46,014 bases of DNA. Source: Candidatus Gastranaerophilales bacterium (lineage in GTDB: Bacteria; Cyanobacteriota; Vampirovibrionia; Gastranaerophilales; Gastranaerophilaceae). The number at the start of each line of letters is the position of its first letter. The stretch's first letter is position 1. Positions 1,913 to 19,900 of the stretch are shown piece after piece. The notes below the pieces were generated by a model. That model worked only from the letters and a program-made list of their open reading frames with translations. It ran no database searches and had not been told where the DNA came from. The stretch spans positions 1 through 46,014 of the forward strand of contig CANQML010000005.1 of NCBI GenBank assembly GCA_947624935.1. The letters run 5' to 3'. The position numbers and the translations under genes are program-made.

Positions 1913-4900
1913 TTAATTTTCTGCGTACAACTTGGCGTCAGCGTAATCATCGGATACAGAGACTGTATATTCTCCGTTGTTCTGGTCGTAATAAACAAAG
2001 AAAGAATAAACTCGCAGACTATAATTTGAATATTTCTCATCGTTTAAGAATCTTGGAGAATAGATATACTGATATGCTTGAAGCGCGTCAGAATACCTAA
2101 ATACATCTTTATGCTCATCATAATTAAGATATCTGCAAACAACATTGGTATTAGCATCAGTAACATTATCTACATCATCAACATAATCATTCTCTCCGCC
2201 TGATCGTTCTACAACTTTGGTAAGTTCTTCATTAATTCCTACGCCACTTGCATCTACAGCATCCTTAGCCTTTGTAGGTGCGCCCGTTTCATCATTCATA
2301 GCGTAATAAAGTGCGCCACCGCCTACAAATTCTACGTCTTTACCAAGACTGTCATTGTAGAAATCTGCTATATAGAAATTCTGAACAATCTCTTTCATTG
2401 CAGTATTAACATCATGTGACCTATGAGCGATAATTGTTTTTCCGTTTAATGTAATACCGTCGGTATTTGCTGCAGTTGTAATACTCATATCGCCCGTAAT
2501 TCTAAAGTTATATGATGTACCTGTAGCAACCTGTTTACCATCATCATACCAAATTAGATTTTCACTATTACCAACTCCCGAAACCTCACCGGATTCAATT
2601 GTTACAGGAGCCTGATATGTTAAGTTTTGTTTATAAACAGCACCGTTAAGATTTACAGTATATGTTCTAACGGTCTTTTTAAGATATGCTGTAATTGTAT
2701 AAGTTTTTGAAGCATCGTCAGATTGAACTTCATAACCAAATTCGGGATCCTGAGTTTTGGGGTCTGATACTAAATGATACTCATAGTAATCATTTACAAG
2801 AGTCGGGTGATTATGAATAATATATTCACTTGTTTCTTCATCAGATAAGTTATCTCCGACGAATGTAATACCCTCAAACGAATACTCTTTAGGAATATCA
2901 TGTTCTTTAGCATAATCTTCGTCATAATAAGTTATTTCTGAATCATCATACAAATCATACTTATATACAATATTAACTGTCCATGTAGTCCTCTGTATAT
3001 ACTTTATTGTGTAATCTTTACCGTCAAGCCAAATTTCAGCATATTCGTCTTTATAATCAACTGACTTTTCATCACCGACATACCAACCGTCAAAATAGTA
3101 ATCCTCCAAAGCGGTTGTACTTGGAGTTACCTTTAATTTAAGCGTACCGTATTCTGTGTCAGAATCAGCTTCAGCATACTTAACTGTATACGAACCACTT
3201 GAATTTTTAGTAACAATACCGCGATTATTAATAGTTGATGTTGCATTTCCTGTGGATTTTGAACCGTGAAGTTCTGTTGAAACACCGCTTAATGTTCCGT
3301 TTTCCGCATCAAAGGTAGAAGAAACTGACTTATAAGACATTACATTAAATGAACCGGATGTTACTTCAGGCTCTACTGTAACATTTATTGTAAACGTCTT
3401 TTCATCATAAGTCTTATTTGTCCAACTACTCATTGAACTATAATATCCACTATGAACCGTACCTGTAATCGTAGCTGTTTTCCTGGTTGTAACAGATTTT
3501 GCGGTTAGTGTGCTTCCGCTTACACTAATAATACTGCTATAGGTAGAGGGAACAGAATACGTAATTGATGCGCCTGTGTAATCATCATCCTTTGTCATTG
3601 ATATATTTGTGCTACTGTCTGACGAAATTGTGATAGTACTTGGATGGCTGTATACAAAAGCTTCAGTGGATGAATAACTGGTCAATGTTCTACCATAGTT
3701 TCCGTTATTATCGTTACTTGTAGAAGTTGAGATAAGGAATCTATTACTACTTGACAAATTGGCGTCTACAGACCTATTATTTATATCATCTGCACTACCT
3801 GCAACTGTTTTAAATACACCAACTGTTGCGCTAACACCAACTTCAACTGCATATACGCTTTGACCACTCGTATTCGTACCAATTTTGGTCATAGCTTTTG
3901 CTGATGTCCAGTCCATCGTACCGTCGTCACAATATAGATGTGGAGTAGTCCAACCTGATAAGGACGTTGATACCACGAGATAAACAACCTTTTTAGTTTT
4001 TGATACTTTAGAAGTAGTTGTTGTAGATGTTGTCACTTTATCTCTTTTAATCTGACCAATACTTTCGAGCCAAGCCTCGCCGGTTGAAATAGCTTTCTTT
4101 CCTATGGTTACTTGATACTCACCGCCATTACATGTAACAGTCGCCGGAATATCTGCAATAGGAGTATCAACATCTCCACTTACTGCATCATACTTATAAG
4201 GTGTGCTTACTTTTGCGGAGTAGACTGTGCTTTCTCCAACTTTAGTTAGAGTTGTTGCAGCTCCCGAACCAAACTTAATCGTCGGACTGGTCGAAATTTT
4301 ATTATCATGTAAATCAATATAGTATGTTACATCCTTACTGCTTTCCGATTGACTTTCAGAGGGAGTTAACGAAAGCGTATCAGATTTAACTGATGTATAA
4401 CCTGATTTTTCTACCTGTACGTAAACAGTATGAGTATTTGTATCTGCAAATGAAGTTTTAAACTCATTTGAAACAGTATTCTGTTTAGTTGAACCATCAA
4501 CATAGAAGTGATAAGTTGCACCGCTTACAGCACCCTCAGCAGTTGCAGTAAAGGTATATTCTACATCTTTATAAACTGTACCCGACGGTTCCCGAGTTAA
4601 CGTTACGCTTGTACAAGCAGGTTCATCCTTTTCAAAGTTTGCGGTCAATGTACCTGTAGCATTAGCATGTAAAGTTGTGGTAGCGGAATTAGCGTCAGTT
4701 ACACTTGCACCGCCTGTAACAGTCCAGTCTTTAAAATGATAGCCTGCGTTAGGCGTAGCTTTAACAGATATACCGCTTGAACCAACAGCTTGTTTTCCGC
4801 TTGGAGAAACACTACCGCCTGTACCAGCAGAAATCGTTACATCGTGTCCGGGTGAAACTGATTTAATATATATTGTATTAGATGTTGCATGTGAGCTTGA

Positions 4901-5644
4901 ATAATAGCTTGTCGAAGACTTATAGTTCCAAGCATATCCCGTATGTGATGCAACAGTACCATTAGTTGAACTTGCTGTAAAAGTCTTGGTATAAGTATTT
5001 GTTGTTGTAGAAGACGCCTTCGAAGAAGAAGAATCAATATTCCAACCAAAACCTGTCATACCGGCATCGTCTTTCGTACCCGTAAGTTTAACAGTATAAG
5101 TTGCTCCCGTATCTACAATATACGGATTTGATGATGTACCGGTTCCGCTTTTTGCATCCGTTACCGAAGCAGTAACAGAGTCGGGCTTAACTGCATAATA
5201 ACTTACTGACTTACTCGTACCACTTGCGGTAAAACTTGTATAGCAGTTATGCGTTGCATCAAGAACAATATCGCCTGTTTGATTCCACGTTTCATTCCAA
5301 GGTCCGGTCGAGTTAGATTTGTTTCTGGTAAAAATAACTCTGTCATAATTAGCGGCAGTTGTTATTCTTGCCCGGTAGTAATCTCCGCTATATTGACTAA
5401 ATTGAATATCAATCTCTTTACCTACACCCTCAATCCACAGATGGGCCCAGGCAGTTCCGCCACTTGTTATCCAATTGTCACTCCAACCGGAAGGTTTAAA
5501 GTTCTTTATATAGATATATTCTCCGACAACCCAAGATTTTGCACCGGCAGTTACTGTGCCTACAAACATTATTGATAACATCATAAGGAAGCATAGTACC
5601 ATAGCCAACGCTCTTTTTGAAATACGAGTTAATTTAGTTTTCAT
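1913..5644 (-). CDS. Large secreted multi-domain surface protein with starch-binding-like and InlB-like repeats
   Basis: A 1243-residue exported protein. The ATG at 5644 has GGAGG 8 bases upstream, whereas an in-frame TTG five codons earlier overlaps that ribosome site. An N-terminal signal peptide (RISKRALAMVLCFLMMLSIM, cleaved near TAGAKS) is clear. Residues about 40-130 look like a starch-binding (CBM26-type) beta-sandwich ('YIYIKNFKPSGWSDNW' to 'QTGDIVL'). A bacterial InlB/Flg_new-type repeat lies near 265-340 ('ISAGTGGSVSPSG...GYHFKDW...ANFE'). A second GW-type starch-binding-like block follows a TTSTTTTSK linker ('YLVVSTSLSGWTTPHLYCDD'), and the C-terminal third is rich in beta-strands and Asp/Tyr. 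I see no catalytic domain, dockerin, LPXTG or transmembrane anchor. A binding or structural role is inferred. Confidence 0.8.
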   Translation of the reverse strand: MKTKLTRISKRALAMVLCFLMMLSIMFVGTVTAGAKSWVVGEYIYIKNFKPSGWSDNWITSGGTAWAHLWIEGVGKEIDIQFSQYSGDYYRARITTAANYDRVIFTRNKSNSTGPWNETWNQTGDIVLDATHNCYTSFTASGTSKSVSYYAVKPDSVTASVTDAKSGTGTSSNPYIVDTGATYTVKLTGTKDDAGMTGFGWNIDSSSSKASSTTTNTYTKTFTASSTNGTVASHTGYAWNYKSSTSYYSSSHATSNTIYIKSVSPGHDVTISAGTGGSVSPSGKQAVGSSGISVKATPNAGYHFKDWTVTGGASVTDANSATTTLHANATGTLTANFEKDEPACTSVTLTREPSGTVYKDVEYTFTATAEGAVSGATYHFYVDGSTKQNTVSNEFKTSFADTNTHTVYVQVEKSGYTSVKSDTLSLTPSESQSESSKDVTYYIDLHDNKISTSPTIKFGSGAATTLTKVGESTVYSAKVSTPYKYDAVSGDVDTPIADIPATVTCNGGEYQVTIGKKAISTGEAWLESIGQIKRDKVTTSTTTTSKVSKTKKVVYLVVSTSLSGWTTPHLYCDDGTMDWTSAKAMTKIGTNTSGQSVYAVEVGVSATVGVFKTVAGSADDINNRSVDANLSSSNRFLISTSTSNDNNGNYGRTLTSYSSTEAFVYSHPSTITISSDSSTNISMTKDDDYTGASITYSVPSTYSSIISVSGSTLTAKSVTTRKTATITGTVHSGYYSSMSSWTNKTYDEKTFTINVTVEPEVTSGSFNVMSYKSVSSTFDAENGTLSGVSTELHGSKSTGNATSTINNRGIVTKNSSGSYTVKYAEADSDTEYGTLKLKVTPSTTALEDYYFDGWYVGDEKSVDYKDEYAEIWLDGKDYTIKYIQRTTWTVNIVYKYDLYDDSEITYYDEDYAKEHDIPKEYSFEGITFVGDNLSDEETSEYIIHNHPTLVNDYYEYHLVSDPKTQDPEFGYEVQSDDASKTYTITAYLKKTVRTYTVNLNGAVYKQNLTYQAPVTIESGEVSGVGNSENLIWYDDGKQVATGTSYNFRITGDMSITTAANTDGITLNGKTIIAHRSHDVNTAMKEIVQNFYIADFYNDSLGKDVEFVGGGALYYAMNDETGAPTKAKDAVDASGVGINEELTKVVERSGGENDYVDDVDNVTDANTNVVCRYLNYDEHKDVFRYSDALQAYQYIYSPRFLNDEKYSNYSLRVYSFFVYYDQNNGEYTVSVSDDYADAKLYAEN

Positions 5645-6040
5645 AAATATAACCTCCAATTAAATTGAAATATAACATTCGGAAGATGTACCGCCTCTAA
5701 GGCATCGGTACATCTTTCGTTCAGCGGGAGTACAATATCCCGCTAAACAGCGCTTGCATTGCAAGCACTCTGCCTGTTAAAAGCATAGCTTTGAATTAAA
5801 ATTGAAACTTTATCTGATATGCGGTGCTGACCAACGCTTTTCATATAAGTTATATAAAGCTCAATTTTAATTACCGGCATTTAGCCGATTTGCGGTTAAA
5901 TTTAAGGAAATCTTAGGCTTTTCCCGCCTGACCTTTTCCGGGAGAAAACCGTTTTGCACACCACGAAACAGTTAAGCCGTTTCGTCCCTGAAAACAATTT
6001 CCACCAAAGTAAATCCTTACATTATTCCGCTATTTTTTAC
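5645..6040 (-). ncRNA. Long structured 5' leader RNA (candidate cis-regulatory or non-coding RNA)
   Basis: Between a strong promoter (start near 6040) and the ATG at 5644 lie about 395 untranslated bases with many self-complementary segments. Helices visible by eye: 5963-5969/5979-5985; 5915-5918/5926-5929 nested in 5906-5910/5935-5939; 5875-5878/5884-5887; a 12-bp long-range helix 5794-5805/5861-5872, continued by 5808-5813/5854-5859; 5752-5757/5761-5766 with outer arm 5746-5750/5774-5778; 5723-5729/5738-5744; and a perfect 11-bp hairpin 5683-5693/5706-5716. It is visibly richer in G+C than its AT-rich flanks. I recognise no known riboswitch core, and no U-tract terminator follows the last hairpin. 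Confidence 0.6.
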
Positions 6041-6046
6041 TATATA

Positions 6047-6076
6047 ATTATACAATAACTTCACTAAAATTTTCAA
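6047..6076 (-). promoter_or_regulatory. Sigma-A promoter of the structured leader and large secreted protein
   Basis: On the minus strand TTGAAA (6071-6076) and TATAAT (6047-6052) are 18 bases apart. It is the only strong promoter pair I see between the Rpn terminator and the leader. Confidence 0.75.
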
Positions 6077-6250
6077 GTCGTTTAAAGAATTTTAGCGATA
6101 ATTTTCAAATTTCGCTTTTTTGCACAATCTGCCTTTTACAACTTTGGTTATTGTAACTAAAAAATTTTAAATTTTATTGAGAATTATTTACTTTCTTCAA
6201 TTTCTTATTTTTTATATTCTATGCAACAGCATACCCGCGCGCATATCAAA
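6077..6250. other. AT-rich spacer without recognisable features
   Basis: Very AT-rich intergenic sequence between the leader promoter and the terminator of the nuclease gene. I see no reading frame with a ribosome site and no hairpin of note. A short GC island (CCCGCGCGC near 6233) stands out but has no evident meaning. Confidence 0.6.
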
Positions 6251-6290
6251 AAAAGCTGTATTAAAACATAACCGCTTTAATACAGCTTTT
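6251..6290 (-). terminator. Bidirectional intrinsic terminator after the Rpn nuclease gene
   Basis: AAAAGCTGTATTAAA (6251-6265) is perfectly complementary to TTTAATACAGCTTTT (6276-6290): a 15-bp stem with T runs on both sides. It would end transcription of the minus-strand nuclease gene. Confidence 0.88.
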
Positions 6291-6311
6291 TATCATTATT
6301 TTTGGTTTTTT

Positions 6312-6338
6312 CACTAACCTTTCAACTGCTTCACACAT
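6312..6338 (-). repeat. Duplicated 27-bp piece of the Rpn coding region, copy 1 (beyond the stop)
   Basis: 27 bases at 6312-6338 match 6514-6540 inside the Rpn gene at 26 positions. The coding copy specifies MCEAVERLV. This copy lies just after the stop codon and is out of frame by one base, so it looks like the remnant of a longer or tandemly duplicated C-terminus. Confidence 0.8.
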
Positions 6339-6342
6339 TTTT

Positions 6343-7155
6343 TTAAATCTCCGACGCTATTTCGTTGATTTTTTCAATCGGAAGTCCCACAATTTGAGAA
6401 ATCTTCTCTTTCGAGAGAGTTCCGTCCTTTATTAAGCTTTTTATTGTTTCCGCTATGCCTTTTTGCATGCCCTGTTGCATACCCATTTGCAGGCTTTTTG
6501 TCTTTTCTCTCTGCACTAACCTTTCAACCGCTTCACACATAAAATCAACTCCTTTAGCTGTTTCTTTGTATGTTTTTGTTATTTCAGCCATAGGCTCGCA
6601 TAACATTTCATTCGCGTTCACACATCGGAAATCATGTAACAGCTTTCCTATATCCGTGCTGACATCATTATATTCTCCGTTTATGTACACTATATGAGTT
6701 CCGTCGTTAAGATGTTCGCCCGTTTTTGTATTCATTCTCTCAAACCAATACACCGGCTCGTTACCCTTAAATATATCTTTTTCAGTTACGAAAATAATAT
6801 ACACATCGGGTAACTTTTCATATGACTCCATTTTTTTGAGATTATCTATATCAAGTGCGCTTGAATGATATCTCGCCCGATGCGGATTAGCTCCCGAATT
6901 GGAGCGTTGAATTTCAATATTGTAAATTTTTCCATTGCTGTCCTTAGCGTAAACATCTAAACATACCGCCCTTGACCCGACTAAATTTATGTCACGCTGT
7001 GTTTCTTCTTCTATGATTTTTAAGTCTTTATTGCTAAGGAAAATTTGAATAACATATTCAGCCAGTTTTAAATTATTCTGAAATATTATCCGCATAAAAT
7101 TATCATCTATGGGACGATAACCCATAACGATACTTTTTATTTCGTTTCTGTCCAT
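6343..7155 (-). CDS. Rpn family recombination-promoting nuclease / PD-(D/E)XK putative transposase
   Basis: A 270-residue member of the Rpn/YhgA-like family, DNases that promote RecA-independent recombination in E. coli and are often annotated as PD-(D/E)XK transposases. The nuclease core is visible: LD67VYAKDSNGKIYNIE81IQ, with Asp67, Glu81 and Gln83 in the D...ExQ arrangement typical of this family. RPIDDNFMRIIF near the N-terminus is also characteristic. The C-terminal tail has the Met/Gln/Gly-rich 'QMGMQQGMQKGIAETIKSLI' segment and an 'SKEKISQIVGLPIEKI' helix. It stands alone with its own promoter and terminator. These genes are usually multicopy in gut Firmicutes. Confidence 0.88.
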   Translation of the reverse strand: MDRNEIKSIVMGYRPIDDNFMRIIFQNNLKLAEYVIQIFLSNKDLKIIEEETQRDINLVGSRAVCLDVYAKDSNGKIYNIEIQRSNSGANPHRARYHSSALDIDNLKKMESYEKLPDVYIIFVTEKDIFKGNEPVYWFERMNTKTGEHLNDGTHIVYINGEYNDVSTDIGKLLHDFRCVNANEMLCEPMAEITKTYKETAKGVDFMCEAVERLVQREKTKSLQMGMQQGMQKGIAETIKSLIKDGTLSKEKISQIVGLPIEKINEIASEI

Positions 7156-7168
7156 ACCTTATCTCCTT

Positions 7169-7206
7169 AACTTGATTATATCACTCCCATTTTAAATAAT
7201 CAAGTT
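7169..7206 (-). promoter_or_regulatory. Rpn promoter embedded in an 11-bp inverted repeat
   Basis: On the minus strand TTGATT (7198-7203) and TATAAT (7175-7180) are 17 bases apart. Both hexamers lie within the arms of a perfect inverted repeat, AACTTGATTAT...ATAATCAAGTT (7169-7179 and 7196-7206). The start site would fall right at the AGGAGA ribosome site. The dyad could be an operator. Its plus-strand T run also allows a terminator-like hairpin. Confidence 0.6.
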
Positions 7207-7304
7207 TTTTCTATCTCCTCGTCAGACAATACATTACCTATATTATAAGGCATATCCACCAAGCGTATTTTCCGATGTTTGAATTTGGATATGAATATAA
7301 AATT

Positions 7305-7330
7305 CGGGAAGATAAAAATTTATCTTCCCG
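7305..7330 (-). terminator. Intrinsic terminator of the htrA gene
   Basis: CGGGAAGATAA/TTATCTTCCCG forms an 11-bp stem with a tight loop. On the minus strand it is followed by AATTTTATATT. It lies about 20 bases past the protease stop codon. Confidence 0.82.
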
Positions 7331-7349
7331 ATTATGGCTATTAAATTAG

Positions 7350-10240: not shown

Positions 10241-13153
10241 TCAGGAAACTATATAACTGTCTTTAAATGGATAAGTTGAAACCGAATATGGTGACGATGA
10301 AGATGAAAGATAATAAGCGGTACGGTCGACAGTTAATGCAATATTTTCGGTTTGATTTCCGGAATTGTTATTGAAAATTATATGGTCATAAACATCCATA
10401 TTAACGGTATATTTATATATTGATTTTCCCATATCGTTCTTACCTATATAGGTCATAATTTTTCCGGGCCAAATAGCCTCCTTATTACTGCCTTTCCAAC
10501 AATAGGCATAAACAGAGGACCAGTTGTTTGTATTTTCAAAATAGACCGTAATTGTATTTTTAATATCTTCGTCATTACCGTCTACATTTTTTGGGTCAAC
10601 TACTGCAAGTAAAGCTTTCTGTAGTTCTGTGAGCCTGCTAACAGCCAAGTCCGTATTTAGGGTACCGTTACTGTAGAGTGTTTTGTCGGTACGGTATTCT
10701 TTCTTTAATGCCTGGTAGCAGTCATACGAACTGTAACGGTAGTAAAGAGAAAGATTATTCTCAACTTCTTTAAAAACAGAATCTATTCCTGCGCCTACAG
10801 AAATCACGTTCGGTTTTTCAGATGTACCATTGAAAGAAAGTATTATCTTTGCGACATATTTTTGAATTAAAGTAACATCCTTTACGTTAACTCCTCTGTC
10901 TTTATCAACATCTGCGGCATAAAATTTATCTCCTGTTAATTCTAACATACCCGCAATATGTTTCTGAACTACTGTTGCGTCTAAGATATTTATTTTTCCG
11001 TCCGCATTAACATCACCCAATGTATAGTCCTTTCCTTCAATAAGGGTAGATTCAGATGTAGAAGATTCACTTGATGAAGTTTCAACGCTCTCTGTAGATT
11101 CAGTTGTTTCTTTGGAAGCGTCTGAATTTTCAGAGGTAATTGATTGAGTGGTTGATTCCGAACTTTCGGTGGAGGTTGAGGAATTAGAATCAGAGGTCGA
11201 TTCCGAGCTTTCGGTAAAGGTTGAATAAGTAGAGTTGGAGGTTACTTCCGAACTTTCGGATGAAACTGAATTAGTTATTGATTCTGTCATTTCCGTAGCT
11301 GAAGCTTTCGTCGATTCGGAAATAGTATTTGTTTCATTTGTTTTAGATGATAAATTTTCCGTAGTTTCAGATGATAAAGTTTCCGTAGTTTTTGAAGCAG
11401 TTGATTCAGAACTTTCAGTTTCATAAGGATTTTTATTTGAATATAAAAGTATTAACTTTTTCGTGGAAGTATTAAAGTTAAACGTGTAAAAACCGCCTGT
11501 TGCGATAAGTTGGCAATCTCCCGCAGACGTACTCATTACCCAGCCTCCGGTTGAGGTCTTTGTTGTAGTATCCTCAATCTGACCATCGTTTCCATACCAA
11601 GTTGAGCCGTTATTTATCTTGAATTTATAAGTTCCTCCGTTTAACTGCAGAGTTGTTGAAACAACAGAAGAATCGCTTGTATAGTACAGAGGATTGCTTG
11701 TTCCCCAGTCGTTAAAGGAGCCCTTCAAATAATAAGATGACGGATTAGTACCCTGAGTCAGCTTTTCGGTGGTAGGTTTTGTTGTAGGATCGGTAGAGGT
11801 CATTTGCTTATAAGCCTGATCAGATGTTCTTACAATATAACAACAATTCGGGTCGTATTCATTATAATAAAGATTAGCGCCGTTAAAAATTATCGCATTA
11901 TCAAATACGTCTACAATATAACCTTCGGTTTGGTCTTCATAATAGGTGTAGTCAAGCTTACCGTTTATAATACGTCGGGTGCCTCCTACAGAACTATTGT
12001 GTATCATTTGTGCAGATGTATCGTTATTATCAGAATAATTATACTGTTCGGAAAATCTTATATGTGTATGACCTGAAATAAAAATAGTGTCTTTATATTT
12101 TTCAAGAAGTGATTTAAAGCGAACGGTAGATGCCTGATTATCGCTTAAAGGAATATCGTAATACGGTGTGCCTGTAGTTGTATCGCCCGCGCCGTACTTG
12201 TAAAACAGAGAATGTTCCACAATATAAATATTATGACCGTCACCCGAGTATTTCTCCAAAAGACCTTCTAACCAATCAAGCTGGTCATTTGAAAACTCCT
12301 CAACTCTGTCAGGATAAAAACCTCCCTCTAAAGCCATAAAAATAAAGTGGTCGCCGTTGATATTTTTTTCAAAGTACGCTTTTTTTGAAGTGTTGTTTGA
12401 GCCCTCCAGACCTGTTGCATTGATAAAGCTTGAGGTGCCTTCGCTGACGCTTTGCCAAAGCTCGTGATTTCCTATTGCCTCATAAATGGGATTACAATAG
12501 TCGGACTCTGCGAGAATTTTTTCATAAATTTTCCATTCCTTAGGCTGAATCCCTTTTGAATCAATATTGTTATTTGTGTAGTCGCCTGATTCAATAATAA
12601 AATCAACCTGTCGGTCCGCAGCGGTTTGAAGCGCATTGCGCCAATGACTGTCAGCATATTTATATGTGCTGTATAAACCGTCTATATGGATATCCGAATA
12701 GGAAGCAAAGCTGTAATTTTTATCTGAGGATTTATGACCAAGCAATTTATTAGCAGGAATGTCATAAACTGCAGATGCATTTCCGACTGTTTTGTTTGAA
12801 GGCTCTGATGCAGAAGAAATTGCAATAAGCTTTACGGCATCCGCAGGTATTGCTGTTTGAGCATACATCTTGTGCGACTGCAAAGAAGATGAAACTGTCA
12901 GCTTGGCTATCTCGCTGTATCCGTTAAGAGCCTTTGTATTATCAGCCCAATAGAGCCAATAGGTTCCCGCAGGAGCAGAAAGTGTTATTGTACCCTCAGC
13001 ATATCCTGCAGTTTCAGCATTAGCACCTGAAAAATTATAAGTAATTTTTGCTGTTGTTTCAGCATTAACCGCAAAAGAAGAAACTGAACAGGATAGAAGA
13101 ATAAAAATTAAAAATATAGAAAATGATTTTTTAAATTTAATTTTAACTTTCAT
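10241..13153 (-). CDS. Secreted dockerin-bearing calcineurin-like metallophosphoesterase with starch-binding-like modules
   Basis: A 970-residue modular exported protein. Signal peptide 1-31. A beta-rich N-domain lies at about 35-130. The metallophosphoesterase domain (145-440) has all metal motifs: D154xH156, G190-D191, GNH230E, His313, and GHTH (361-364). A pullulanase/SusE-like starch-binding-type module follows (about 472-572, 'YYLKGSFNDWG'), then a 130-residue Ser/Thr/Glu linker. A type I dockerin (710-772) has two calcium loops (D714-N716-D718...D725 and D748-D750-D752...D759). A second starch-binding CBM26-like module ends the protein (865-957, 'VYAYCWKGSNKEAIWPG'). Dockerins attach proteins to cohesin scaffolds, so this would be a cellulosome or amylosome component. 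The phosphoesterase substrate is unknown. It has its own promoter. Confidence 0.92.
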   Translation of the reverse strand: MKVKIKFKKSFSIFLIFILLSCSVSSFAVNAETTAKITYNFSGANAETAGYAEGTITLSAPAGTYWLYWADNTKALNGYSEIAKLTVSSSLQSHKMYAQTAIPADAVKLIAISSASEPSNKTVGNASAVYDIPANKLLGHKSSDKNYSFASYSDIHIDGLYSTYKYADSHWRNALQTAADRQVDFIIESGDYTNNNIDSKGIQPKEWKIYEKILAESDYCNPIYEAIGNHELWQSVSEGTSSFINATGLEGSNNTSKKAYFEKNINGDHFIFMALEGGFYPDRVEEFSNDQLDWLEGLLEKYSGDGHNIYIVEHSLFYKYGAGDTTTGTPYYDIPLSDNQASTVRFKSLLEKYKDTIFISGHTHIRFSEQYNYSDNNDTSAQMIHNSSVGGTRRIINGKLDYTYYEDQTEGYIVDVFDNAIIFNGANLYYNEYDPNCCYIVRTSDQAYKQMTSTDPTTKPTTEKLTQGTNPSSYYLKGSFNDWGTSNPLYYTSDSSVVSTTLQLNGGTYKFKINNGSTWYGNDGQIEDTTTKTSTGGWVMSTSAGDCQLIATGGFYTFNFNTSTKKLILLYSNKNPYETESSESTASKTTETLSSETTENLSSKTNETNTISESTKASATEMTESITNSVSSESSEVTSNSTYSTFTESSESTSDSNSSTSTESSESTTQSITSENSDASKETTESTESVETSSSESSTSESTLIEGKDYTLGDVNADGKINILDATVVQKHIAGMLELTGDKFYAADVDKDRGVNVKDVTLIQKYVAKIILSFNGTSEKPNVISVGAGIDSVFKEVENNLSLYYRYSSYDCYQALKKEYRTDKTLYSNGTLNTDLAVSRLTELQKALLAVVDPKNVDGNDEDIKNTITVYFENTNNWSSVYAYCWKGSNKEAIWPGKIMTYIGKNDMGKSIYKYTVNMDVYDHIIFNNNSGNQTENIALTVDRTAYYLSSSSSPYSVSTYPFKDSYIVS

Positions 13154-15640: not shown

Positions 15641-16759
15641 TTATTTCTTTAGATAATTCATAAAATTGTTCTTATTCTCAATCGCCGTAGTTGTAGGGCG
15701 TCCGAGATTTGCTCTTGCACCTATTGAACATTTGACTTCAATGAAACTTAATTCATTACGCTTTTTAGCTAAATTAAGCTCTTTATTAAGTGATTCAAAA
15801 TTATCCACACATACAGCATAGGGATACCCGCACGCTTTTGCTATTGCCACAAAATCCAAACTGCCCGCCACTGTAGGCATACCGCCGACTGTTTCATGGG
15901 CTTCGTTATTAATAACAATATGTACAAGATTATTCGGGGAGTTCGCTCCGAGAACTGCCATAGCTCCCATATGCATAAGTACAGCGCCGTCGCCGTCAAT
16001 ACACCAGATTTTTTTATCGGGCTTATTTAGCGCTACACCCAATGCGATTGATGAGCTGTGTCCCATAGAACCGACAGTCAAAAAATCATATTCATGCCCC
16101 TGACCGTTTGCCTCTCTTATTTCAAATAACTCTCTGCTCGCTTTTCCCGTAGTTGAGATTATGGGGTCTTTACCTGTTACGTTAACTATATGTTGAATAA
16201 TTTCTTCACGAACCATAATATTTGAGTTTGTGTAATTTACCTTTTTATCGTATTCCAGCGCACCTTTCCTTATAATAAAGGCAACATTTTTACCTTTGGC
16301 AAGAATATCGTTAAAGTCTTTCATAACTTCAGCAATTTCCGTATCAGTTGTCTCTTTGCTAACAATAAAGGTTTTTATACCCATATCCTCCATTAGCTTA
16401 ACTGTAACTTCGCCTTGATAGATATGCTGAGGTTCATCATGTACACCGGGTTCACCTCTCCAACCTATAATAAATACCATAGGAATGGCGTAAACCTTAT
16501 CATTAAGCAGGGAAGCTACAGGATTAATTATATTTCCCTCCCCGCTGTTTTGCATATACACAACCGGCACTTTTCCTGTTGCAAGATGATAACCTGCCGC
16601 CAGCGCGGTACAGTTTCCTTCATTTGAAGCGATAATATGATGTTTTTTGTCTATTCCATATGTGTTCATAAGATAGTCGCAGAGAGCTTTTAATTGTGAA
16701 TCAGGTACACCCGTATAAAATTCCGCGCCTATTACTTCGAGTAACTTTTTTACTTTCAT
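15641..16759 (-). CDS. aepY: Phosphonopyruvate decarboxylase
   Basis: A 372-residue thiamine-diphosphate enzyme that decarboxylates 3-phosphonopyruvate to phosphonoacetaldehyde, the step that pulls the unfavourable PEP mutase reaction forward. The N-terminal half has 'FYTGVPDSQLKALCDYL' and the catalytic glutamate in 'ASNEGNCTALAAGYHLATG'. The C-terminal half has the ThDP-magnesium motif 'CIDGDGAVLMHMGAMAVLG' through NN. The segment 'WRGEPGVHDEPQH' is typical of Ppd rather than sulfopyruvate decarboxylase. GGAG precedes the ATG. It lies 12 bases after the phosphonoacetaldehyde reductase gene, forming one unit with PEP mutase. Confidence 0.93.
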   Translation of the reverse strand: MKVKKLLEVIGAEFYTGVPDSQLKALCDYLMNTYGIDKKHHIIASNEGNCTALAAGYHLATGKVPVVYMQNSGEGNIINPVASLLNDKVYAIPMVFIIGWRGEPGVHDEPQHIYQGEVTVKLMEDMGIKTFIVSKETTDTEIAEVMKDFNDILAKGKNVAFIIRKGALEYDKKVNYTNSNIMVREEIIQHIVNVTGKDPIISTTGKASRELFEIREANGQGHEYDFLTVGSMGHSSSIALGVALNKPDKKIWCIDGDGAVLMHMGAMAVLGANSPNNLVHIVINNEAHETVGGMPTVAGSLDFVAIAKACGYPYAVCVDNFESLNKELNLAKKRNELSFIEVKCSIGARANLGRPTTTAIENKNNFMNYLKK

Positions 16760-17890: not shown

Positions 17891-19900
17891 TTATATATCA
17901 TCAGGAATAAGACGTATAATTTCCTTAAAAGGCATACAAATATCATCACATTCCTTGGCGCGGTGATTTTCAAGAATCAATTTAGCCGCATTCTGCATAG
18001 CAGGAAATCCTGTCCTTGTAAGTTGATTAGCATAAATAATAATATTTACTCCGCGCACCTTAAATTCTTCCTCAGTTACGGTATTAAACGATGTTGGAAC
18101 TACTACAATTGGAGTTGTCTTATCTTTCGCGCGGAACTTCTCCACAAACTCAAAAATCTCATCAGGTGATTTCTTTCTGCTGTGAATCATAATTGCATCG
18201 GCGCCTGCTTTTGAAAACGCAAATGCTCTTTCAAGCGCATCGTCCATTCCGCGTTCCAAAATAAGACTTTCAATACGCGCACAAATCATAAACTCTTTTG
18301 TTCTTTGAGCCTTTTTGCCCGCTTTAATCTTTTCGCAAAAATTAGGAATACTGTCCTGTGTTTGCTGTACTTCTGTACCGAAAAGACTGTTTTTCTTTAG
18401 TCCCGTCTTATCCTCTATGATAACCATAGAAACTCCCATACGTTCAAGCGAACGTACTGTATATACAAAATGTTCGGTCAATCCGCCTGTGTCACCGTCA
18501 AATATAATCGGTTTTGTTGTAACCTCACAAATATCGTCAATAGTACGAAAACGCGACGTCATATCAACAAGCTCAATATCAGGCTTTCCCTTAGCAGTAG
18601 AGTCACAAAGAGAACTAACCCACATTGCGTCAAACTGACGTGTACCGCCGTTTTCTTCAACCCTTGTGTTTTCTACAATAAGGCCTGTAAGTCCGCTGTG
18701 AGCCTCCATAGCGGTAATTGTACCTTTCATTGTAAGCAATTTTTTAAGCCTCGAACGGCGCACATCCGGTGTAGACAGCTCCATCGTGGCACGTTTTTCA
18801 AGCTCATCATATTTCTCGTCTTTTGAATACGGGAACTCAATTAATTTTCCGCCGTAAGTATTAAGCACATCAACAACTTCTTGACGAATTGATTTTTGAA
18901 ATCCCGTTTTCCAGTCGTCACCGTGTACAACAAAATCAGGCTTATATTTTTCAAGATTTTCTCTGTAGCTTAACTTATTTTGTTCCACTACCTTGTATAC
19001 TCCCGAAATATTTTCAAGCATACTCTTTCTTTCGGAATAAGGTACCAAAGGAAATCTCTTGTAAGTTACAACGGCCTCATCAGAAAGTATTCCGATAATC
19101 AGTTTTCCCAAGCGTTTAGCTTTTTTCAAAATTTGAATGTGTCCGCTGTGTAAAATATCCGTTGAAAAACACATATACACAATGCGGTTCTCAATTTCTT
19201 TGAGTTTATTGGAAACATCACCTAAATCTTCAGGATTATCAACCTCGGAGCACAGTCTTTCTTTAACGTCTAACGGATTAATTTTACATCTATCCGAAAC
19301 TTTATTTAAAGCGTTTTCAGCATAGCAATTCACATTATCCGATTCACAAAAATCAATAATACTGTCAAGCCAAACTTTCCAGTCATCTTTTAAAAGCTTA
19401 TAAAGCGGTTGAGCAGACAAAGCATTTTCAAAAAAGTCAATGCCTACCTTTTCTACTCTATTGTCTGAAATAACTGCCTTAAAATCCTTTTTAGGTAAAG
19501 GAAGTGTAGAACTAACTGTCATACAACTGCCCTTAAAACTTAGTACATCATCAAATACAGTATTTTCAAACACCAAATCGCCGTGCATTAAAATAATATC
19601 GTCATCAAGATATTCCCTGGCACAATAAATTGAGTATATATAATTTGTTTTATCATATACCGGGTTTTTCACAAATTTGTATTTTAAAGGCAAATCAAGA
19701 CTATAGCAGTATTCCTCCAAAATATTATCAAAATATCCGGTTGTCATTACAACTTCTTTTATTCCTGCCTGAGCAATTATCTTTAATTGACGGCTTAATA
19801 TAGTATCCGTAGGCAGAATTTCTGTCATACACTTAGGCTGTTCAGATGTCAGAACTCCCATACGGCTTCCAAGTCCTGAATTTAAAATCAATGCTTTCAT
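17891..19900 (-). CDS. aepX: Trifunctional fusion: NTP transferase - cytidylyltransferase-like - PEP mutase
   Basis: A 669-residue three-domain protein. Residues 1-230 form a LicC/PntC-like nucleotidyltransferase (LNSGLGSRMGVLTSEQPKCM, with Asp108 in MHGD). Residues 238-385 form a TagD-like cytidylyltransferase with the HxGH motif HSGH at 251-254 and 'FVVHGDDWK'. Residues 388-669 form PEP mutase of the isocitrate-lyase fold: 'EAHSGLTGLIVE', 'FDGDTGG' and the signature EDK(496-498)TGLKKNS(504-505). PEP mutase makes the C-P bond by converting PEP to phosphonopyruvate. The cytidylyltransferase-PEP mutase pairing is common; the extra N-terminal domain suggests CMP activation of the finished phosphonate. 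It follows a 195-bp AT-rich gap with no clear promoter. Confidence 0.93.
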   Translation of the reverse strand: MKALILNSGLGSRMGVLTSEQPKCMTEILPTDTILSRQLKIIAQAGIKEVVMTTGYFDNILEEYCYSLDLPLKYKFVKNPVYDKTNYIYSIYCAREYLDDDIILMHGDLVFENTVFDDVLSFKGSCMTVSSTLPLPKKDFKAVISDNRVEKVGIDFFENALSAQPLYKLLKDDWKVWLDSIIDFCESDNVNCYAENALNKVSDRCKINPLDVKERLCSEVDNPEDLGDVSNKLKEIENRIVYMCFSTDILHSGHIQILKKAKRLGKLIIGILSDEAVVTYKRFPLVPYSERKSMLENISGVYKVVEQNKLSYRENLEKYKPDFVVHGDDWKTGFQKSIRQEVVDVLNTYGGKLIEFPYSKDEKYDELEKRATMELSTPDVRRSRLKKLLTMKGTITAMEAHSGLTGLIVENTRVEENGGTRQFDAMWVSSLCDSTAKGKPDIELVDMTSRFRTIDDICEVTTKPIIFDGDTGGLTEHFVYTVRSLERMGVSMVIIEDKTGLKKNSLFGTEVQQTQDSIPNFCEKIKAGKKAQRTKEFMICARIESLILERGMDDALERAFAFSKAGADAIMIHSRKKSPDEIFEFVEKFRAKDKTTPIVVVPTSFNTVTEEEFKVRGVNIIIYANQLTRTGFPAMQNAAKLILENHRAKECDDICMPFKEIIRLIPDDI

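Follow-up and report, generated by a model that had tools for sequence, protein, structure and literature searches.

A structured leader upstream of a secreted-protein gene

The window, by which we mean the whole stretch of 46,014 nucleotides that was analysed, carries a gene for a secreted protein, preceded on the same strand by a structured leader with its own promoter (Table 1). The promoter proposed in the earlier note, TTGAAA and TATAAT with an 18-nucleotide spacer, is indeed present on the – strand and matches the consensus at 11 of 12 positions. Transcription of the leader region, with a start near 6040, is deduced from this promoter. The leader is also richer in G+C than its upstream flank (0.386 compared to 0.26), as had been noted before. 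The gene further upstream encodes an Rpn-type nuclease, and its predicted terminator isolates the transcription unit of the leader, which thus appears to begin a self-contained unit.

A protein search with the secreted protein revealed one true homologue, on contig CANQKO010000050.1 of a metagenome-assembled genome from rabbit gut (hereafter L002), where the leader was then located by alignment. Both the promoter and the terminator are kept in L002, and both contigs have the Rpn gene upstream. In L002, two genes that by eye resemble a SocA-like antitoxin and a MazF-like toxin (L002:318-1212) lie between the tail of the Rpn gene and the terminator-leader block; they are absent from the window.

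Table 1 Positions of the features described in the text
Feature	Positions	Strand	Details
Secreted 1243-aa protein gene	1913-5644	–	Start ATG 5644; signal peptide and one InlB-B-repeat domain (PF18998, E 8.6e-14)
Structured leader	5645-6040	–	~395 nt, between promoter and gene 1913-5644
Shine-Dalgarno and weak hairpin	5653-5670	–	GGAGG (5657-5653), covered by UUUCAAU-UUA-AUUGGAG
Hairpin array	5686-5788	–	Three strong tandem hairpins (5749-5769, 5719-5748, 5680-5719); inverted repeats
Domain B	5789-5873	–	12-bp AT-rich helix B (5861-5872 with 5794-5805) over one imperfect stem
Domain A	5892-6030	–	Multi-helix; closed by GCGG/CCGC (6030-6027 with 5895-5892)
Promoter TTGAAA-18-TATAAT	6047-6076	–	–35 at 6076-6071, 18-nt spacer, –10 at 6052-6047
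Intrinsic terminator of Rpn gene	6245-6296	–	21-nt inverted repeat, then T run
Rpn-type (PDDEXK_2) gene	6343-7155		Upstream of leader; AT-rich DNA and terminator between its end and the promoter
970-aa secreted protein	10241-13153	–	Metallophosphatase domain, type I dockerin, CBM26 starch-binding module
Phosphonopyruvate decarboxylase	15641-16759	–	In polysaccharide-type cluster
PEP mutase fused to nucleotidyltransferase domains	17891-19900	–	Phosphonate gene of polysaccharide-type cluster

Domain A starts about 10 nucleotides past the inferred transcription start, which puts a stable structure close to the start of the mRNA. Its closing helix encloses a long hairpin with an apical stem at 5984-5964, and another formed by CCCG and CGGG (5944-5922). 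The earlier note had described a 12-bp long-range helix closing a multi-helix domain. The perfect helix exists, as helix B, but it encloses a single imperfect stem of 55 nucleotides, and the actual multi-helix domain of the leader is domain A. Similarly, the last hairpin had been placed about 30 nucleotides before the ribosome site. About 23 nucleotides separate the end of the last strong hairpin (~5680) from the GGAGG, and a small hairpin between them (5670-5654) had been missed. None of the three array hairpins is followed by a T run, and no intrinsic terminator was found inside the leader (5645-6040), so control by premature termination is unlikely.

Fold strength of the leader

On the – strand the leader has a minimum free energy of –133.5 kcal/mol, compared to a mean of –93.6 kcal/mol for dinucleotide shuffles (z –7.8), and 0 of 100 shuffles are as stable. 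Each sub-part is significant on its own, with z-scores of –3.7 for domain A, –4.8 for domain B and –5.4 for the hairpin array, which bears out the description of the leader as rich in helices. The + strand also folds well, though less so (z –6.9), a consequence of perfect inverted repeats, which can pair on either strand. Control coding segments of the window reach only –0.5 to –1.6, and six other intergenic stretches on the – strand lie between near 0 and –1. Four further intergenic regions (1-220, 1067-1912, 6041-6342 and 7156-7349) attain z-scores of about –3.5 to –5, at least partly due to terminator hairpins inside them in the case of 1067-1912 and 6041-6342. Strong folds in the window are therefore not unique to the leader, but that of the leader is the strongest.

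Conservation in L002

Sequence identity between the window and L002 is, part by part, 96% in the terminator region, 89% in the upstream AT-rich DNA (range ~89–92%), 95% in the promoter, 90% in domain A, 82% in the linker, 78% in domain B and 97% in the ribosome-site region. The longest identical run (60/60 nucleotides, 5675-5616) takes in the Shine-Dalgarno with its weak hairpin, as well as the start and the initial codons of the gene, and an identical run of 42 nucleotides (6098-6057) spans the –35 element and spacer of the promoter. The hairpin array is wholly absent from L002, where it corresponds to 103 gap columns, and thus is no part of any conserved sensor core; by this comparison it is a dispensable, lineage-specific element, and it indicates the extent to which a 5' UTR can be remodeled between close relatives. 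In L002, helix B retains eight pairs and two U-G pairs, followed by a mismatch.

The fold of domain A is alike in the two sequences (z –3.7 in the window and –3.4 in L002). Survival of base pairs was compared with the structure of either single sequence as reference and with one relative only. With the window as reference, 12 pairs are broken compared to 14.3 expected from random placement (P 0.21), and with L002 as reference 12 compared to 17.3 (P 0.03); substitutions hit paired positions at close to the random rate. There are 0 two-sided compensatory changes. Five pairs of the consensus fold are changed on one side yet still paired, in a fold that was chosen from the same two sequences. The DNA preceding the promoter is as well conserved as domain A. 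Since compensatory pairs are absent, pair survival is chance-like and the upstream DNA is equally conserved, covariation is unproven. The whole block is conserved as sequence, and a single relative gives no independent sign that the RNA fold is. With one relative, the comparison shows that the sequence of domain A is kept, but no more than that of the DNA upstream. The earlier suggestion of a new cis-regulatory RNA finds no support here, with one relative that lacks compensatory pairs and also lacks three of the strongest helices.

Searches for known RNA families and further homologues

The families of Rfam 15 have nothing in common with the leader at the gathering score, at which they give no match anywhere in the window, and a search of the L002 leader was equally negative. 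At E ≤ 10, weak alignments either miss the folded domains or lie on the opposite strand; the exception is a partial caiA alignment over 5642-5692, far below threshold. A known RNA class was rejected for lack of a match in Rfam 15. This agrees with the earlier statement that no known riboswitch was recognised, and leaves the suggested large RNA class of Firmicutes without backing. The structured leader is real and matches no catalogued RNA family; cis-regulation by it is unproven. A leader-peptide attenuator was also rejected: there is no terminator, and the two candidate short frames noted by eye (TTG at ~6010 and ATG at ~5842) have changed residues or a lost start in L002.

The leader occurs as a single copy in its genome. 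Leader and protein are both absent from all 15 other genomes of the genus of the bin, and the leader is absent from 382 other genomes of the family, in which BLAST matches of 24–37 nucleotides were rejected as chance similarities within unrelated, mostly AT-rich sequence. Phage, plasmid and viral collections, including IMG/VR, gave no homologue, and one pattern match in IMG/VR (L040) lies inside a coding region and was dismissed as chance. Scanning 392 genomes of the phylum of the L002 bin and 386 of the phylum of the window bin with a two-sequence covariance model of domain A revealed nothing beyond the two known copies. A search for solved structures with the secreted protein gave none.

Possible functions of the leader

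The account that we tentatively favor, at a little short of even confidence, is that the leader is a modular structured 5' UTR of a monocistronic mRNA with a role in stability or translation of the secreted-protein message. In Bacillus-type bacteria, 5'-end-dependent decay by RNase J dominates and stable 5' structure protects mRNAs; 5' hairpins are established strong mRNA stabilizers in Bacillus (PMC3997798). Transcription would start near 6040 and the RNA would form domains A and B, with three additional hairpins in this strain. The folded 5' end would most likely shield the mRNA from 5'-end-dependent decay of the RNase J type, and the weak ribosome-site hairpin would set a fixed translation rate; we infer that no ligand takes part. 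The pairing probability of this hairpin is 0.64–0.89 in the window and 0.36–0.66 in L002, which would allow a modest effect on translation. This protective role of 5' structure, together with the lack of a terminator and the weakness of the Shine-Dalgarno hairpin, is what favors a stabilizing or translational leader. Further support comes from the strong fold in both sequences, the lack of an obvious expression platform, the ribosome site and start being the most conserved stretch, and the fact that the block of terminator, promoter, leader and signal peptide moves as one while the mature N-terminal domain is replaced. Lineage-specific strongest hairpins would also suit a generic stabilizer better than a ligand pocket. 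The leader resembles stabilizing leaders of secreted-protein mRNAs such as aprE of Bacillus subtilis (PMC3997798) in its folded 5' end, strong ribosome site and lack of a terminator, but it is much longer and more elaborate, and the likeness is one of architecture. On the other side, domain A is more elaborate than a stabilizer requires, and its conserved loop sequences GGCUUAAC, GGAAAAGGUCAG and GUUGGUCAG could form a binding pocket. A stabilizing leader would be an ordinary solution, with the leader-plus-signal-peptide block held constant while the mature domain is exchanged.

A second reading, which we regard as unlikely but worth serious attention, is a new cis-regulatory RNA that senses a ligand or a protein. 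Domain A would be the sensor and helix B would compete with the ribosome-site hairpin: its 5' arm AAUUAAAAUUGA would have two alternative partners, its own 3' arm and the strand masking the Shine-Dalgarno, and pairing with the latter would free the Shine-Dalgarno. The shared fold of domain A is consistent with this, as is the repeat UUUCAAUUU(U)AAUU, present at both helix B and the ribosome site. Both sequences allow the alternative duplex (–6.7 kcal/mol in the window and –5.3 in L002), and its ribosome-site strand is unchanged in L002. However, native helix B is far stronger (–14.4 and –12.8 kcal/mol, respectively) and AT-rich complementarity easily arises by chance; the missing compensatory changes, the chance-level pair breakage and the negative Rfam search also argue against sensing. 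Orphan riboswitch candidates and long G+C-rich intergenic RNAs (PMC8632094, PMC2864571) are similarly long, structured and G+C-richer regions upstream of a single gene and outside Rfam, but the present leader is represented by just two sequences, which show no covariation, and it has neither a metabolic gene downstream nor a recognized expression platform. A sensing RNA would represent a rare case, a cis-regulatory class attached not to a metabolic gene but to a surface-type protein that gut bacteria secrete. Its most specific form, a long shot in our estimation, is a new class in Ruminococcus-like gut bacteria in which a molecule or protein sensed by domain A shifts helix B between its two partners, and synthesis of a secreted glycan-binding or adhesin protein is thereby matched to need.

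The equal conservation of the AT-rich DNA upstream of the promoter also fits a function at the level of DNA, in which the region is a conserved flank for recombining variable secreted-protein modules beside the Rpn nuclease gene and its inverted repeats fold by accident. That both strands fold well, that conservation of the protein is a mosaic and that the Rpn gene stays upstream in both contigs point the same way. Nevertheless, the leader has an excellent promoter reading into it and a ribosome site at its end, its fold is stronger on the – strand than on the + strand and the genome has no further copies, and we judge this explanation improbable. Finally, domains A and B are compact and folded and the array precedes the gene, as might be expected of a separate non-coding RNA that is cut or terminated ahead of the gene. 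With no intrinsic terminator in the leader and no array in L002, we consider this very unlikely.

The secreted protein, the host and neighboring genes

Identity between the two secreted proteins is uneven: 26 of 35 residues in the signal peptide, 27% over residues 36-340, 61% over 341-660 and 88% over 661-770. The mature N-terminal part has apparently been exchanged or evolves fast, and the segment from the terminator through the signal peptide, like the C-terminal part, has been retained; this mosaic suggests domain exchange. The 1243-residue protein is probably carbohydrate-binding or adhesin-like.

The core contigs of the bin carry diderm genes (MlaA, secretin) and correlate with each other in tetranucleotide composition (r about 0.93), whereas the window correlates with them at 0.6–0.8. 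The HtrA encoded in the window has no close counterpart in the genus of the bin. The dockerin and CBM26 modules of the 970-residue protein suggest an amylosome-like system. Proteins with dockerin, CBM26 and metallophosphatase domains are typical of Ruminococcus-like starch degraders. Since both the tetranucleotide profile and the gene content (dockerin, CBM26) differ from those of the diderm core contigs, the most likely explanation is misbinning of the window from a Gram-positive, Ruminococcus-like organism, and relatives of such a host would be the likeliest carriers of further homologues. The small genomes with which the L002 bin is grouped lack the leader, so L002 has probably been assigned to the wrong bin as well.

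A 66-residue ORF (MHKNLYISPEFEWMNIDLLEDVLSASNPD..., 1550-1751, – strand) has a good ribosome site and is followed by a terminator (1486-1507). It sits in an intergenic region of 846 nucleotides (fold z about –5), has no Pfam match and could encode a small peptide precursor. Much of the remaining window (13948-45862, – strand) is a long polysaccharide-type cluster with phosphonate genes, which also includes an Fe-dependent alcohol dehydrogenase and a WecE-type aminotransferase; its gene content suggests a phosphonate-decorated surface glycan.
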